A stretch of 23,044 nucleotides of DNA from a virus: positions 1-23,044 of IMG/VR virus record IMGVR_UViG_3300032241_002499. One strand, written 5' to 3'. Positions 2,432 through 21,465 of the stretch are shown here, one piece after another. Each line of letters starts with the position of its first letter. Within the stretch, counting starts at the first letter, position 1. A program made the translations under genes and the position numbers. Under the pieces are notes generated by a model. That model worked only from the letters and a program-made list of their open reading frames with translations, made no database searches and was not told the origin of the DNA.

Positions 2432-2884
2432 CTAACTTTTGAACGGGATTGGATCTATCATACCCTTTTCCCAAAAATATAATTCTATCCATGGAGGCAG
2501 TAATTTCTCCATTTCTTTTAATACTTTCTTGTTATCTTCATAATGCCTTTCTATATTCAAATTTATAATAACCTCAGATTTAAAGGCAGCAACATTCTTA
2601 ATAGATCTGGATTCTCTAAGAAGATGTAATTCGATTACACGACTATTATAATTGGCATTAAGCCAATCCATAGAAATTTTATAGATATGCGGTTCTGCTT
2701 TCCTAGCAGAGATAGCATAAAATTTATCTTCTTTTGGTTGTATTAGAGAAGCAGCATTTTTATACCAATCATTTAAGTATTGCTTTCTTTCTCTACGTTC
2801 TTCCCCGTTCATTTTACCCCAACTCTTTTTTGAGGCTGGAGGTTTCTCGGCGAGAACGCCATCAACATCATATGATACAATCAT
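2432..2884 (-). CDS. HAD-superfamily phosphatase-like protein
   Basis: A 150-residue protein that starts MIVSYDVDGVLAE. D6 and D8 form the DxD nucleophile motif of HAD phosphatases. S59 in YAISARK is motif II, a lysine around 97-102 could be motif III, and E116/D117 in HYEDN are the acidic motif IV. No large cap domain fits in this length. The family hydrolyses small phosphate esters, including sugar phosphates and nucleotides. Its start overlaps the stop of the GT-B gene by ATGA, so the two are translationally coupled, which hints at a role in the same pathway. Options include 5'-nucleotidase or sugar-phosphate phosphatase activity, or polynucleotide 3'-phosphatase. The substrate cannot be read from the sequence. 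Confidence 0.7.
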   Translation of the reverse strand: MIVSYDVDGVLAEKPPASKKSWGKMNGEERRERKQYLNDWYKNAASLIQPKEDKFYAISARKAEPHIYKISMDWLNANYNSRVIELHLLRESRSIKNVAAFKSEVIINLNIERHYEDNKKVLKEMEKLLPPWIELYFWEKGMIDPIPFKS

Positions 2885-3888
2885 AGCTTGATCAAATCAA
2901 CTTTTTTCGTCATTTGAATGGTTCTTTTTTGTTGGTTCCAAATTTTTTCTCTAAAGGAATTATCTGTCTCAGCGAAGTCAGATAGAGATCTAGCAGTGTC
3001 TATTCCATAACACCAATTTAATCCAGCATTACCTTCTGGCGAACAGACAGGAATACCAGCGTACACAGCATGATAAGCTCGACCTGTGCGCCAACCGCAT
3101 GTCTTATGTTTGTTATCATAGACCGCAAGACATCCAGCATATGTTTGATAGAATGCCCTTCTATCTTTTTGACTTGGATTTTTAACTACATTTACATCTG
3201 GAAAATCTTTCCATTCTTCTGGCTTTCCAGCTATTACGAGTTCTGGAGATTTTGTCAATTCTTTAAATATTTTAGAACGACCATTAGGTCTACCGATATA
3301 AACTATCTTTTTATTTTCTCCATCATGAAAATCAGCAAATTCCATTCCACCATCCATCGGATAATCAACAACTCTGACTCCTGTTGGACATCCTAGGACT
3401 TGACCCACTTCTTTAGGATTTACTGCATTAGCAGCAACAGTCCAACGAGTCCAGTTTTCATTAGGTAATAATTCCCAGAGAAATGCTAAGTCTGGATCAT
3501 CATTGATGAATATGATCTTGCCTTTATGGTCATTAATCATCTCTACAGTTTTATCCCAATACTTTTTGTAAAACTGTAAATTAGTACCGCCAAATTCAAG
3601 AATTAAAGTGTCGCATTCTTGATACTTTGAATGATAATCTGATAGTTCATCTTTAGTAGCATCAGTTGGTTCTGACAATAAATCAATTCTATAATTATCA
3701 TCAAGCAAGGTCTTGAACAAGGCTACTCGTTTCTCTACCCAAGCTCCGCGAATTCCTTCTTCGTTGTTAGTAAGACCAACTTTACCCGAAACTCTACGAT
3801 ATCCGATCTTAGGACCAGTGTTGCTTGAATATCTATCGAGAAACCAACTGAGTTGGCTCTCTTCACCTAACAATGACATTAAACTCAT
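2881..3888 (-). CDS. GT-B glycosyltransferase, resembles T4 DNA beta-glucosyltransferase
   Basis: A 335-residue protein with two Rossmann-like halves. The N-terminal half (about 50-140) has VALFKTLLDDNYRIDLLSEP and a KIIFINDDPDLAFLW strand. The C-terminal half has KIVYIGRPNGRSK (194-206), RRAFYQTYAGCLAVYD (243-258) and TGRAYHAVYAGIPV (268-281). These align in order with T4 beta-glucosyltransferase elements (VISEMGLNVDIISL, YYLFTDIRLP, VIYGGSFRSGQR, AIAALIIGD, TLRVWETMASDAVM), the C-terminal ones lining the UDP-glucose pocket. T4 BGT is 351 residues and glucosylates 5-hydroxymethylcytosine in DNA. The gene starts 3 bp after the stop of the dioxygenase gene, which would make the hydroxyl acceptor. 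GT-B fold is likely; the DNA acceptor is inferred from similarity and context. Confidence 0.7.
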   Translation of the reverse strand: MSLMSLLGEESQLSWFLDRYSSNTGPKIGYRRVSGKVGLTNNEEGIRGAWVEKRVALFKTLLDDNYRIDLLSEPTDATKDELSDYHSKYQECDTLILEFGGTNLQFYKKYWDKTVEMINDHKGKIIFINDDPDLAFLWELLPNENWTRWTVAANAVNPKEVGQVLGCPTGVRVVDYPMDGGMEFADFHDGENKKIVYIGRPNGRSKIFKELTKSPELVIAGKPEEWKDFPDVNVVKNPSQKDRRAFYQTYAGCLAVYDNKHKTCGWRTGRAYHAVYAGIPVCSPEGNAGLNWCYGIDTARSLSDFAETDNSFREKIWNQQKRTIQMTKKVDLIKL

Positions 3889-3891
3889 AAA

Positions 3892-5295
3892 TTATCCAAA
3901 TAATGATTCCAAACTATTTTTATGCTCAAATCTTTCGATAAGCCAAGGGTGATATTTCTTTAACATAGTATATCCATTTGGTTTATTTTTTAAAAATTCA
4001 TACCATTCTTTGGCTGCTTCCCAATCTTGTTTAGGATCTTGGCTGTCTGAAAAGCAATTTTTCGAAATACCATTCCAGAGTTTCCTTTGCATAGGATGTT
4101 CAGGATTCTTGCGACGAGATTCTACAAATTCAAAACGATGAGTTTCATATTCATATGAACCAAGTTCAAGCATCTTTTCGCGAAGATAACATACCAACGA
4201 AATACGCTCACCATCTTCGTATGGTTCGATTGGTGTATTGCCATGAATGATCTCATGATTGTTCACAAGAAGTAGATCGCCAGGACGCACATTAACCGCC
4301 ACACGATATTCTGGAAATACGAGATAACCACCTCTATACTTACCGTTATTAGATAAGACAAGAAGATTACTCAGACCATCGGTAAAATCTCCAGCGTCTC
4401 GATGACAAGCTGTACGGAAGGTCTTGTTAACAGTAATAGTTGTAAATACTGTATCAGGAACTAAAAAACGTGGATCGATTTTATCAGCGGCTGCTCTTTG
4501 ATTTCCCCAACGCCACGGCAACAATTCTTTAAACCCACGATCAAGTGATTGTAAGAATGGGAATGCCATCTCAAACTTATCATAGTGGTTTTGCGTGTAA
4601 GCAGTCGCTCTTCCATAAGGAATACGCGGATAACGATCGAACCAACCAGCAATACCAGAGAACACTGGATTTGCATATGTCGTATCAGAAATATATTTGC
4701 TCATCACATCTTTAGCATCTTTACGAATCTCAGCTTTATCCTTTTTCTTAATAACTTTAGAAAGCCAATTTTCAAAACTGAAGTTGTCTTTCTTGATTTC
4801 GTTAGCGAGCCAAACGATTCCCCTACTTGAAGATTCATCTTTGTGAATTTGACGAAGTCTCTCTATTTCTTCTTTTAGATCAACTTTAATTACAGTATCA
4901 GTCAAATCAGAAAGGTACTCTAAACTTTCAATCTGAAAGTTGGTAACCCAATCGCGCTCACCGCATTTCTCACCTTTCGGTCCTGCAGCCAACCCACGAT
5001 TTTGAGAAGAAGTAGCTGCTTCTCTTAAGCCTTGATAGGCTTGTTCTTGTTCTTGTTTAGAGAAGAAGTTTTTACGAAATTTGAATGCGATCTTACGTTC
5101 ATTTGTTGGATCGACGGAGGAACATTTACTGCAATCTTTTTCTTTACAGTTAGCCTTTTCAATTATGCTACATCCAACTTCCATATAGCAATCAGTATCT
5201 TTTTCGATGAGAGTGTCATAATGAGACTCATCGACGAATTGTCCAAGGAGATGTTCGCAATCAATTTTTTCTCTTGCTACAATAATTTTAGCCAT
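3892..5295 (-). CDS. TET/JBP-like 2-oxoglutarate/Fe(II) dioxygenase, putative DNA base hydroxylase
   Basis: A 467-residue protein whose C-terminal half carries a double-stranded beta-helix oxygenase core. The iron ligands are H298 and D300 in RTACHRDAGD and most likely H351 in IIHGNTPI. R364 in GERISLVCYLRE fits the 2-oxoglutarate-binding arginine. The strand and turn GGYLVFPEYRVAVNVRPGD lies between them, as in TET/JBP relatives. Known members oxidise the 5-methyl group of 5-methylcytosine or thymine in DNA; phage versions occur with DNA glycosyltransferases. The N-terminal half is not recognised. It has a cysteine cluster (C36, C42, C50, C55, C58) that could bind metal, and a charged helical stretch. 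An AGGAG site precedes the ATG. It is first in a unit behind its own promoter. An oxygenase acting on protein is the main alternative. Confidence 0.7.
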   Translation of the reverse strand: MAKIIVAREKIDCEHLLGQFVDESHYDTLIEKDTDCYMEVGCSIIEKANCKEKDCSKCSSVDPTNERKIAFKFRKNFFSKQEQEQAYQGLREAATSSQNRGLAAGPKGEKCGERDWVTNFQIESLEYLSDLTDTVIKVDLKEEIERLRQIHKDESSSRGIVWLANEIKKDNFSFENWLSKVIKKKDKAEIRKDAKDVMSKYISDTTYANPVFSGIAGWFDRYPRIPYGRATAYTQNHYDKFEMAFPFLQSLDRGFKELLPWRWGNQRAAADKIDPRFLVPDTVFTTITVNKTFRTACHRDAGDFTDGLSNLLVLSNNGKYRGGYLVFPEYRVAVNVRPGDLLLVNNHEIIHGNTPIEPYEDGERISLVCYLREKMLELGSYEYETHRFEFVESRRKNPEHPMQRKLWNGISKNCFSDSQDPKQDWEAAKEWYEFLKNKPNGYTMLKKYHPWLIERFEHKNSLESLFG

Positions 5296-5418: not shown

Positions 5419-5700
5419 TTAAGCACTAATCGCACGGCGATAAAGAACCTTGCGAGCGCGAGCATAATGACTCGAAGCAAAATTCTTTACAAAAGCCTCA
5501 CAAGGTGTACCAATACGATACACAAAAGTGCGAGTGCCGTCGCTCAACTTCGCGCGGTTGGTGTACACTGCGACACCATTGTTGCGAAGACGATAAACGA
5601 GATCAGCGACATTCTCAACCTTAAACAAGGTACGAGCCTGACGCGTGGTCACTTTATTGCCGTTGGACAAATAATTAAACATTGACTCAATAGCAGACAT
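5419..5700 (-). CDS. small helix-turn-helix protein (HTH_39-like)
   Basis: A 93-residue basic protein. The order MFNYLSNGNKVTTRQARTLF, then VADLVYRLRNNGVAVYTNR, then a short strand hairpin (TRTFVYRIG) is that of a winged helix-turn-helix of the small phage HTH_39 type. Residues about 16-45 would be the HTH and 45-68 the wing. The ATG follows GGAGTTATCAT. It is flanked upstream by a candidate promoter containing a perfect palindrome and downstream by a strong terminator, so it is a monocistronic unit. A DNA-binding regulator is likely; autoregulation is inferred only from the palindrome. The target genes cannot be read from the sequence. Confidence 0.7.
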   Translation of the reverse strand: MSAIESMFNYLSNGNKVTTRQARTLFKVENVADLVYRLRNNGVAVYTNRAKLSDGTRTFVYRIGTPCEAFVKNFASSHYARARKVLYRRAISA

Positions 5701-9620: not shown

Positions 9621-10295
9621 CTACCCAACATTATACTCGAATACTGCTGGAGTTTCCTTTTTTGGAGCTTCTGTTATCTTTTGTATTTTATTAGAAAGCT
9701 TTTCTGATTTTTCTTTTAATTGATTGAGGTCTTCGTATGCTTTCTTAAGTTTATTTACTTTCTTCAAGTTAATCTTAACTTTCTCTTTGGCTCTTTCTAG
9801 AACTAGTCTACTGACTTTACTTGTGTAACAAATTCCATCTAAGTGGTCCAACTCATGCTGAAAGATTCTGGCAGTAAGTCCATCGAACCGTTCTTCCTTG
9901 GTGACGCCATTCATGTCGGTATATCGAACATTAATGCTGGCTGCTCTCGGAATCTTCAGATATAATCCTGGAAATGAGATACAACCTTCTTCAATGATTT
10001 CTTCTCCGCTTCTTTCTAAGATTTCTGGATTGAAACAAGCAAATCCGACTTTCTCAGCTCCCATAACAAATACGCGATAAGGAAGTCCGACTTGATTTGC
10101 TGCTAGACCAACGCCACGATACTTAACCATAGTTTCAATTAATGAAACGGCAAGTTCTCTAGGATTAACTGGAGGCTTACTGAAATTAAATGGTTCTAAT
10201 TTTTGTTTTAGAATATCTGAGTTTGGATCTACACGTTTGTATAAAACATACTCATATGTTTCGCCATTAACAACTTTAAATTTTTTCTCGCTCAT
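9621..10295 (-). CDS. def: peptide deformylase with C-terminal coiled-coil extension
   Basis: Removes the formyl group from N-terminal formyl-methionine of new proteins. All three family motifs are intact: GVGLAANQVG (61-70), EGCIS (103-107) with the metal-binding C105, and QHELDH (146-151) with H147, H151 and catalytic E148. Marine phages often carry this gene, apparently to maintain processing of newly made proteins during infection. Known phage deformylases are usually short and lack the bacterial C-terminal helix. This one instead has about 60 extra residues (165-224), lysine/glutamate-rich and predicted coiled coil. The start overlaps the SLOG gene stop as TAATG, with AGGA 7 bases upstream. 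It is the last gene of the gp46/47 operon. Confidence 0.93.
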   Translation of the reverse strand: MSEKKFKVVNGETYEYVLYKRVDPNSDILKQKLEPFNFSKPPVNPRELAVSLIETMVKYRGVGLAANQVGLPYRVFVMGAEKVGFACFNPEILERSGEEIIEEGCISFPGLYLKIPRAASINVRYTDMNGVTKEERFDGLTARIFQHELDHLDGICYTSKVSRLVLERAKEKVKINLKKVNKLKKAYEDLNQLKEKSEKLSNKIQKITEAPKKETPAVFEYNVG

Positions 10296-10636
10296 TATAC
10301 CATCCTCACTTCAACACCTTGTTCTTTAGTAATTCTAGTCATGTGGGCTGTGCCACGACCACCTTTAAACGATAATAACAAATCAAGACCATGATCTAAC
10401 ATTCTTTTATTACGAATTGGTCCAGCAGATCTACCGTATGCTTCCCAGTTAGCGTGATAAACGAAAACAGGAACTTTTCTTTCAGTTGCCCACTTACGAG
10501 CAAAGTTATCAACACCTGTAGCGTCACCAACAATTATATTGATGTTAGCATTTGTGTGGTAGATATTATCTAATACTTGCCATACGTGGGCTTCATCTTT
10601 ATAGTCACGTCCACCAGTGACTCCTACATTAAACAT
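10295..10636 (-). CDS. SLOG-fold protein of the YspA/DUF2493 type
   Basis: A 113-residue single-domain protein. It starts with FNVGVTGGRDY, a strand followed by the GGRDY nucleotide-binding turn. It continues with INIIVGDATGVDNFARKWA, where GDATGVD is the second conserved loop, and GRSAGPIRNKRML, the third. This is the pattern of the YspA/YpsA-related SLOG family, thought to bind nucleotides or nucleotide-derived signals such as ADP-ribose-type ligands. Phages frequently carry it, with no fixed role. It is joined to gp46 upstream and to deformylase downstream by TAATG stop/start overlaps, so it is translated with them. The ligand is unknown. Confidence 0.8.
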   Translation of the reverse strand: MFNVGVTGGRDYKDEAHVWQVLDNIYHTNANINIIVGDATGVDNFARKWATERKVPVFVYHANWEAYGRSAGPIRNKRMLDHGLDLLLSFKGGRGTAHMTRITKEQGVEVRMV

Positions 10637-20138: not shown

Positions 20139-20816
20139 TTATTTATAAAAATTAAATTTTTGGGCTACCGCTGTGGTAGATTTGGTACAATTATCAAAGT
20201 GATATCTCTTTATTAAAGATTTACCACCTATTTTTCCGCAATGAGGACATTCAATCCTCTCTTGTGGTTTTTGAAACTTTTTTAAAATTTCAGGATTTTT
20301 CATAGGGTTATTGTTCTTAAACCTTAGTTTGGCAGCTTCAATAACCTTTATTCTAACATTAGATTTTAGGAAATTATGAGATCCTTCATCCAATTGTTGA
20401 TTTGATTTTTGCTTTCTTTTTTCTCTAACTGAATCTTTTTTAGATGGATTATTTATTGATGCATATCTTTTTCCATCTTCTGTTTTCATCCAATTCCAAT
20501 TATTTCTTCTTTGTTTTTCTTTATCAGAATGAGCAGGATTTAAATTTCCTGTCGCAAATCCAACAGAAGAGTTATTGAAGTTCATATTTAATTCATTATT
20601 ATAATGTTCTGTTATTAAAGTTTTCTCAGCCTCACATAATGATTTAAAATCGTCATAGTATGAAAGAATTTCCTTAATCAAATTCTTTTTATCATTTAAT
20701 GATCTTATCCATTTGCCAGAACCAATATAGCTATCATTAATATTTTCTGTGCTATGCCTTCCGACATAATATCTGCCGCTCTGAGGATCTGTTATTTTAT
20801 AAGTATAATGTAACAT
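20139..20816 (-). CDS. GIY-YIG homing endonuclease with zinc finger
   Basis: A mobile free-standing endonuclease that cuts genomes lacking it and spreads by repair. The N-terminus MLHYTYKITDPQSGRYYVGRH is the GIY-YIG core, followed by the usual DSYIGSGKWI segment. The middle is basic and rich in Asn/Lys, as in T4 Seg-type enzymes. The C-terminus has CPHCGKIGGKSLIKRYHFDN, a CxxC...HxxxC zinc finger of the kind used for DNA recognition. I place the start at 20816, because an upstream in-frame ATG at 20846 lies inside gp21 and adds residues before the GIY-YIG core. It is wedged between gp21 and gp22, which are adjacent in T4. Confidence 0.88.
   Translation of the reverse strand: MLHYTYKITDPQSGRYYVGRHSTENINDSYIGSGKWIRSLNDKKNLIKEILSYYDDFKSLCEAEKTLITEHYNNELNMNFNNSSVGFATGNLNPAHSDKEKQRRNNWNWMKTEDGKRYASINNPSKKDSVREKRKQKSNQQLDEGSHNFLKSNVRIKVIEAAKLRFKNNNPMKNPEILKKFQKPQERIECPHCGKIGGKSLIKRYHFDNCTKSTTAVAQKFNFYK
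20140..20147 (-). promoter_or_regulatory. T4-type late promoter before gp22
   Basis: A perfect TATAAATA on the minus strand lies 25 bases upstream of the gp22 ATG, with TAGGAG as ribosome binding site between. It falls within the final codons of the homing endonuclease (its Tyr-Lys-stop is TAT AAA TAA). The late sigma factor gp55 that reads such elements is encoded at 13681-14247. Confidence 0.75.
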
Positions 20817-20820
20817 TAAT

Positions 20821-21465
20821 TTATAATTTTGAGATAAAGTTCTCAAATTGACGTATCTGAATCTCTTCCAACTGTCTGCGTTTTGCGTTGATAATAGCCT
20901 TTTTCATTTCATCTATTTCAACTTCTTTGACTAAACCATTATCCCAAACCCACTCTTTACCTTCCATAATACCTTGAACGAATGCTCCTGGTGCGCTCGG
21001 GTCTGCGACGATGTCGGCTGCTGTAGCAAGATAATAATCGGGCTGAACATAGTTTACGCCATCTATGCTCTTTAATGAGCCCATGCCTCGTGAAGAAACA
21101 CCAAGTTGAGCGCCACCTTTAATAAGGTTCTCGGCAATCTTTCCCATTGGTGTTCCTAAAATTTTTGCTTTACCAATCCAGCAGTCACCATCTTGTTTAA
21201 GATCTACAATCATGTGACTGACGCGATCTAGATTAATTGTTGGAGTTTCTGGATGTCCCAATTCGCCGAATGCTCTTTTCTTTTCAACGAATTCTTTTAT
21301 ATAACGATCAACTTCTTTCTTTAATACATCAGTAGGATATATTCTACCATTCTTATTCTTTTTTTCGGCGACCAAAAATGGTCCTGAAATATGAAGAGAT
21401 TTCTCCCCATCTTTTTCTTCAGTCAAATATTTAACTTCTTCGATTGTTTCTCTAATTAATTTCAT
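20821..21465 (-). CDS. 21: prohead protease (T4 gp21-like)
   Basis: A serine protease that matures the prohead by cutting gp22, gp23 and other core proteins at LxE/IxE sites. The catalytic histidine is in GELGHPET (H71) and the serine in LGVSSRGMGS (S124/S125), as in the herpes-type/T4 prohead protease family. The segments FLVAEKKNKNGRIYP and VSHMIVDL are also conserved. The 214 residues match T4 gp21 (212). AGGA lies upstream of the ATG, and the start overlaps the stop of the small basic gene as TAATG. Confidence 0.96.
   Translation of the reverse strand: MKLIRETIEEVKYLTEEKDGEKSLHISGPFLVAEKKNKNGRIYPTDVLKKEVDRYIKEFVEKKRAFGELGHPETPTINLDRVSHMIVDLKQDGDCWIGKAKILGTPMGKIAENLIKGGAQLGVSSRGMGSLKSIDGVNYVQPDYYLATAADIVADPSAPGAFVQGIMEGKEWVWDNGLVKEVEIDEMKKAIINAKRRQLEEIQIRQFENFISKL

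Follow-up and report, generated by a model that had tools for sequence, protein, structure and literature searches.

The dioxygenase gene and its neighbours

The stretch of DNA analysed here (the window) is a linear viral fragment of 23,044 bases, which is the entire public record and is complete as deposited. It is a segment of a T4-like myovirus and contains the sliding clamp gp45, gp46/47, the late sigma factor, UvsW and UvsY, together with structural genes for the tail tube, the capsid protein gp23, the scaffold and the prohead protease. The genes for the prohead protease and the scaffold flank a homing-endonuclease-like ORF (20139-20846, minus strand; phrog_314, E 8e-22), and the replication cluster includes a peptide deformylase (9621-10295, minus strand, E 2e-37) and a small SLOG/YAcAr protein (10295-10636, minus strand, E 3e-18). 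None of the relatives came from a bacterial or archaeal genome contig, and hence no host is assigned.

At positions 3892-5295, on the minus strand and exactly where the initial annotation had placed the gene, lies an ORF of 467 aa that encodes a TET/JBP-family Fe(II)/2-oxoglutarate (2OG) dioxygenase (TET in the following). A winged-helix protein (5419-5700, minus strand; HTH_39, E 1.6e-6) is encoded immediately 5' of it. On its 3' side, the same strand encodes, in this order, a 335-aa protein that belongs to no Pfam family (2881-3888), a 150-aa HAD-like protein (2432-2884), a predicted glycosyltransferase of the phrog_1574/Anp1-like type (1586-2383; phrog_1574 E 4e-63 and, slightly below the Pfam cut-off, Anp1 E 2.5e-6), a T4 gp1-like deoxynucleoside monophosphate (dNMP) kinase (951-1583; Pfam DNMK E 5e-7, phrog_139 E 2e-39) and gp45.

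The membership of the 3892-5295 product in the TET/JBP family is shown by sequence, catalytic residues and fold. It matched Pfam Tet_JBP (PF12851) with E 5.6e-23 (81.4 bits, compared to a curated cut-off of 34.9), and a match to phrog_24024 (E 1.5e-156) spans the full length. The AlphaFold model (pLDDT 88.4) has a double-stranded beta-helix fold that is nearest to TET enzymes (TET2 Z 20.9, NgTET1 19.1, CMD1 18.6, CcTet 18.5), and the next structural group scored only ∼14 (ALKBH3 14.2). When the protein was aligned with TET2, the iron triad and the 2OG-binding arginine (H298, D300, H351 and R364) were found in register, and these four residues are invariant across 43 aligned members. The HxD iron-binding motif (H298, D300), together with D303, is encoded at 4387-4404, the second iron-binding histidine H351 at 4243-4245, and the segment from R364 to R372 at 4180-4206 (all minus strand). 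That the enzyme oxidises a 5-methylpyrimidine in DNA, which we predict to be thymine, is inferred, as there is no biochemistry. Some of its relatives carry the public label 'SNF2 DNA repair protein'; the SNF2 domain, a feature of JBP2, was absent from the Pfam matches of the window protein, which leaves the label unsupported here, and it probably reached these entries by way of JBP2.

The gene at 2881-3888 (minus strand) encodes a predicted DNA glycosyltransferase (GT). In a sequence search it had no relative in Pfam, among PDB sequences or in phage records. A model built from 19 sequences (pLDDT 82.7) showed a GT-B fold, and its four top structural matches were all T4 beta-glucosyltransferase (BGT; Z 20.0-20.5 over ∼290 residues, the best with 291 residues at 3.4 Å), followed by TarM (Z 17.3) and T4 alpha-glucosyltransferase (16.7). 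Sequence homology between the GT and T4 BGT was undetectable (hhalign probability 0.8%), and a short FGGxxN/FGGxN stretch is common to both. The glucosylation step rests on the fold alone, and the transfer of glucose to a hydroxymethylated base is a prediction from the model. In vitro, T4 BGT can make base J from 5-hydroxymethyluracil (5hmU) in oligonucleotides, in duplex DNA only if 5hmU is mispaired with G (PMC4111573).

The third cassette gene (2432-2884, minus strand) encodes a HAD-like phosphatase candidate with the motifs SYDxDGVLA and HYEDN. It had no Pfam match and no known relative in phage records; DxDG and HYEDN are kept in 23 homologues. We collected 27 further contigs with the window's own TET-glycosyltransferase-HAD cassette. 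TET precedes the window-type GT, directly or nearly so, in 26 of them (the remaining one is cut at the contig end), and the HAD-like gene stays with TET and GT across the cassette loci.

The C5 methyltransferase and a predicted base-contact residue in related phages

The initial annotation had claimed that the window contains neither a DNA methyltransferase nor a nucleotide hydroxymethylase, and this held: the C5-cytosine methyltransferase family (PF00145) had no match in the 23-kb window, and a Pfam scan found no ThyA-family hydroxymethylase (PF00303) among its genes. It had also allowed that a methyltransferase could lie elsewhere in the genome and had suggested searching there for both enzymes. 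As the remainder of this virus's genome is not public and the window is the full record, nothing further could be searched, and the absence was tested in relatives instead.

Three sets of viral contigs were gathered according to the similarity of their TETs: the clade of the window (set A; 80 loci, 58-74% identity); 71 TETs related to that of Methylophilales phage Melnitz, used as the methyltransferase-linked control (set M); and 80 TETs related to those of P12024L and HTVC112P (set P). PF00145 was searched over whole contigs, 50 per set. It was found in none of the 50 set A contigs (1.39 Mb in all, including records of 197, 173 and 89 kb), while 49 of the 50 set M contigs contained it, although these were shorter in total (0.63 Mb). 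For the contrast between A and M, Fisher p is 1e-27, but contigs that are related cannot be counted as independent draws. In 53 of 60 set M cases the methyltransferase is found one gene upstream of TET, and it is because the linked relatives keep theirs at this position that a missing methyltransferase beside the window TET is informative.

The 27 own-cassette contigs, among them records of 160, 106 and 102 kb, also had no PF00145 match. Neither did any of six complete isolate genomes whose TETs are related to that of the window (DLP6, Cr30, C48C1, S-CBWM1, HTVC112P and P12024L) or four actinophages with a TET (Nigel, Terij, Kharcho and LittleMunchkin), even at E<=10. With 0/50, 0/27 and 0/6 against 49/50 in the control, a phage-encoded methyltransferase elsewhere in the genome, as the initial annotation had allowed, is now unlikely for this clade. 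We note that metagenomic contigs may be incomplete and that their completeness is not given.

In set P, 4 of the 50 contigs (L200, L203, L206 and L217) carry a short C5 methyltransferase together with an Arg-type TET (see below), within 2 kb in two of them. In P12024L, a DNA methylase of the N6/N4 type, not the C5 type, adjoins TET and its glycosyltransferase (L006:9373-10008; PF01555, E 3e-13). The TETs of the four actinophages (L247-L250) are publicly labelled as queuine tRNA-ribosyltransferase or oxidoreductase; they adjoin ParB-like nucleases, and a PF18751 kinase is present in two.

The clades also differ in a residue predicted to contact the base. In TET2, the contacts to 5-methylcytosine (5mC) include N1387 and H1904. 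The equivalent of N1387 is D303, which is Asp in sets A, M and P; as it does not separate the clades, it was dropped as a marker of specificity. The equivalent of H1904 is R372, which lies eight residues past the 2OG arginine in a gap-free alignment. In a census by clade, this position was Arg in 80/80 members of set A and 80/80 of set P, Asp in 60/63 of set M and Leu in the four actinophages. Conceivably, Arg could serve as a donor opposite O4 of thymine, and Asp as an acceptor opposite the cytosine amino group, but this is inference. In a tree, set A with the T4-like isolates, set P and set M form separate groups. The contrasts in the residue and in the methyltransferase both follow one deep split in this tree and are thus not independent events. 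Moreover, the four set P contigs with an Arg-type TET and a C5 methyltransferase show that Arg at this position does not exclude cytosine everywhere.

The cassettes that follow TET

The gene order in set A is AAA ATPase, winged-helix protein, TET, a variable cassette, the phrog_1574 glycosyltransferase, dNMP kinase and gp45. The winged-helix gene is at position -1 of TET in 44 loci, the window among them, and the phrog_1574 glycosyltransferase and dNMP kinase are present in 54/80 and 45/80 loci, respectively. Across the set A loci (L011-L090), at least four types of cassette occupy the slot between TET and the conserved phrog_1574-dNMP kinase-gp45 block. A P-loop kinase with an amino acid:DNA transferase (ADDT, PF18724), usually accompanied by a glutamine amidotransferase and a GNAT protein, fills it in 38/80 loci, one GT-B gene in 23 and a TET-associated glycosyltransferase (TAGT) in 6; the GT and HAD cassette of the window was also found in one set A locus (L013). 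ADDT and the GT-B gene are mutually exclusive across the set. We predict that the swapped cassettes represent a natural series of modifications built on one hydroxylase.

This arrangement bears on an anti-restriction or eraser role. Here TET would oxidise 5mC installed by the host, in phage or host DNA, against 5mC-dependent nucleases, and the GT would modify something else. Such a role needs no phage methyltransferase, and eukaryotic TET enzymes serve as erasers. However, in nearly all readable loci the slot 3' of TET holds a predicted tailoring enzyme (GT-B, TAGT, ADDT with kinase, or GT with HAD), which implies that further groups are added to the oxidised base, and we consider the eraser role very unlikely.

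We also regard it as very unlikely that the enzyme acts on nucleotides or RNA, with the gp1-like kinase phosphorylating an oxidised dNMP for replication. In favour of this, the dNMP kinase lies downstream in more than half of the clade loci, as given above, and T4 gp1 phosphorylates hydroxymethyl-dCMP. Against it, the top structural matches of TET are DNA-acting enzymes, gp1-like kinases are found in T4-like phages with or without TET, and past the GT-HAD cassette in the 27 own-cassette contigs (L267-L293) the operon goes on without a recognisable kinase.

Tailoring of a base hydroxylated in DNA remains our preferred reading, and the ADDT cassette is informative about which base this may be. 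The ADDT proteins of set A match PF18724 with E 5e-18 to 1e-52, and a profile built from them detects the ViI protein (E 1e-39). The family is also present in phiW-14, ViI and M6, in which the hypermodified base is thymine, made from 5-hydroxymethyldeoxyuridine (5hmdU) via a 5hmdU DNA kinase (PMC6449724, PMC5977210). All three of these phages carry a PF00303 hydroxymethylase. In contrast, PF00303 was found in none of 15 set A contigs and none of 10 GT-cassette contigs (0/25), while the positive control, T4 gp42 (dCMP hydroxymethylase), was detected. Cr30, which has both TET and ADDT, contains one PF00303 gene, the only one among the T4-like isolates; it lies beside ribonucleotide reductase and has the Asn typical of thymidylate synthase. 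As the TET-ADDT contigs are without the PF00303 gene that the known ADDT phages carry, TET appears to take the place of the ThyA-family hydroxymethylase and to supply the 5-hydroxymethyl group of thymine in these phages. This is an inference, but it is the simplest reading. ADDT was absent from all 50 contigs of the methyltransferase-linked set M. It was also absent from the window, itself a fragment, while about half of its clade, as well as Cr30, have it.

Some other genes of the operon were not used to judge the base. The P-loop kinase family also occurs beside set M TETs; the 5hmdU DNA kinases (PF18748) are among its best matches in M6 and ViI, but the similarity is weak. The P-loop kinase and TAGT were dropped as base markers, as both accompany methyltransferase-linked and methyltransferase-free TETs. 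Similarly, the phrog_1574 glycosyltransferase, present in 65 phage records, was not counted as evidence of glucosylation: it is also found in many phages without a TET match, and so it probably does not depend on TET.

The strongest competitor to thymine is that TET oxidises 5mC to 5hmC, which is then glycosylated, with the methyl group provided by the host or by a phage methyltransferase that is either encoded elsewhere or too divergent for PF00145. For those phage TETs that have been characterised, the substrate is 5mC (Burke et al. 2021, cited in PMC11404850), the Melnitz-type relatives encode their C5 methyltransferase one gene upstream and four P-clade contigs have one as well, T4 BGT, the nearest fold to the GT, works on 5hmC, and Caulobacter, the genus of the host of Cr30, has a PF00145 gene. 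Against this, PF00145 was found in 0/77 clade or cassette contigs, some of them near genome length, and in none of the six complete isolates; apart from the Cr30 thymidylate synthase there was no PF00303 protein able to make methyl- or hydroxymethyl-dCMP; host methyltransferases would mark few sites only; and thymine is a better fit to ADDT and the Arg residue. We therefore consider the 5mC route unlikely.

A putative thymine route and its relation to known systems

The reading that we favour, and that we consider likely, is that thymine is oxidised in DNA to 5hmU, which is then glycosylated to a base-J-like product; the chemistry is inferred throughout. In the first step, the TET/JBP enzyme would act on replicated DNA and hydroxylate thymine at its 5-methyl group, as kinetoplastid JBP1/2 do. 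In the second, the adjoining BGT-like GT-B enzyme would add a sugar to the hydroxymethyl group, with the HAD protein, and possibly also the phrog_1574 glycosyltransferase, assisting. The phage would thereby carry hypermodified thymine in its DNA, which would be expected to resist host nucleases. In those relatives that have the kinase and ADDT after this TET, these enzymes would turn 5hmU into amino-acid-type thymine derivatives.

The genes, the folds, the conservation of the operon, the exchange of cassettes and the absence of the C5 methyltransferase and the ThyA-family hydroxymethylase from the clade are shown here, whereas the thymine substrate, the identity of the sugar and the protective function are all inferred. 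In particular, JBP-like hydroxylation of thymine to 5hmU is deduced from gene content and one residue only. We favour thymine because ADDT fills the same operon slot in close relatives that are without the usual hydroxymethylase. The initial annotation had proposed a thymine-directed route as worth testing, and the absence of the methyltransferase from the clade and the presence of ADDT without a hydroxymethylase support this proposal, but the chemistry has not been shown. Several points speak against thymine: there is no base measurement for any of these phages, it is possible that hosts supply 5mC, the window itself is without ADDT, and the GT resembles BGT by fold only, with 5hmC being the natural substrate of T4 BGT. 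A bolder reading is that a large T4-like clade makes base J, or a close relative of it, by means of a TET/JBP enzyme and a BGT-fold GT, while sister phages feed an amino-acid-transferring thymine pathway in which TET replaces the nucleotide-level hydroxymethylase; this is in our view as likely to be wrong as right.

A TET route to modified thymine has so far been shown only in trypanosome-type parasites. If the route proposed here exists, it would provide base J synthesis with a counterpart, or an ancestor, among viruses, and phages with a second route to hypermodified thymine, with enzymes that write 5hmU into ordinary DNA. It would also offer a test of which active-site residue sets specificity for cytosine versus thymine. 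The isolated phages DLP6 and Cr30, which have relatives of the window TET, make the question testable now. The paper on DLP6 describes digestion with 18 restriction enzymes (PMC5349666), which we did not use as evidence because the sentence that gives the outcome is garbled.

In the literature searched, from which many journals were lacking, we found no earlier work that systematically connects a TET clade without a methyltransferase to enzymes of thymine tailoring, or that describes a BGT-fold partner. For the five-gene cluster of Rhodococcus phage Tonitrus, a role of a tet-like gene in thymidine hypermodification has been suggested by annotation, without tests (PMC11955845). Tonitrus is an actinophage; the TETs of the four other actinophages group in a clade of their own, have Leu at the R372 position and are next to ParB-like genes, but the Tonitrus TET was outside that comparison.

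The window GT is similar to T4 BGT in its fold and in the FGGxxN/FGGxN stretch, but it differs in having no detectable sequence homology, in its predicted acceptor (5hmU rather than 5hmC) and in its partner, which is a TET rather than a dCMP hydroxymethylase. With the phage pathway of TET and C5 methyltransferase (Burke et al. 2021; the Melnitz clade), the window's clade shares a homologous TET (profile E 1.3e-58) and an operon with tailoring enzymes; it departs from this pathway in the missing C5 methyltransferase, in Arg instead of Asp at the H1904 equivalent and in the ADDT of many of its members. ADDT, along with a distant resemblance of the kinase, in turn connects many members of the clade with the thymidine hypermodification of phiW-14, ViI and M6. 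Those phages make 5hmdUMP before replication with a ThyA-family enzyme (PMC5977210), whereas the TET route would act after it, and the window itself has the GT cassette instead of ADDT. Finally, compared to the kinetoplastid pathway of JBP1/JBP2 and the base J glucosyltransferase, the genes are organised in a phage operon, the dioxygenase has no SNF2 domain by Pfam, the tailoring enzyme has a BGT-like fold and the substrate is inferred; what the two systems have in common is the Tet_JBP family itself, a hydroxylation of thymine followed by glycosylation, which in the phage is predicted, and no requirement for a methyltransferase.
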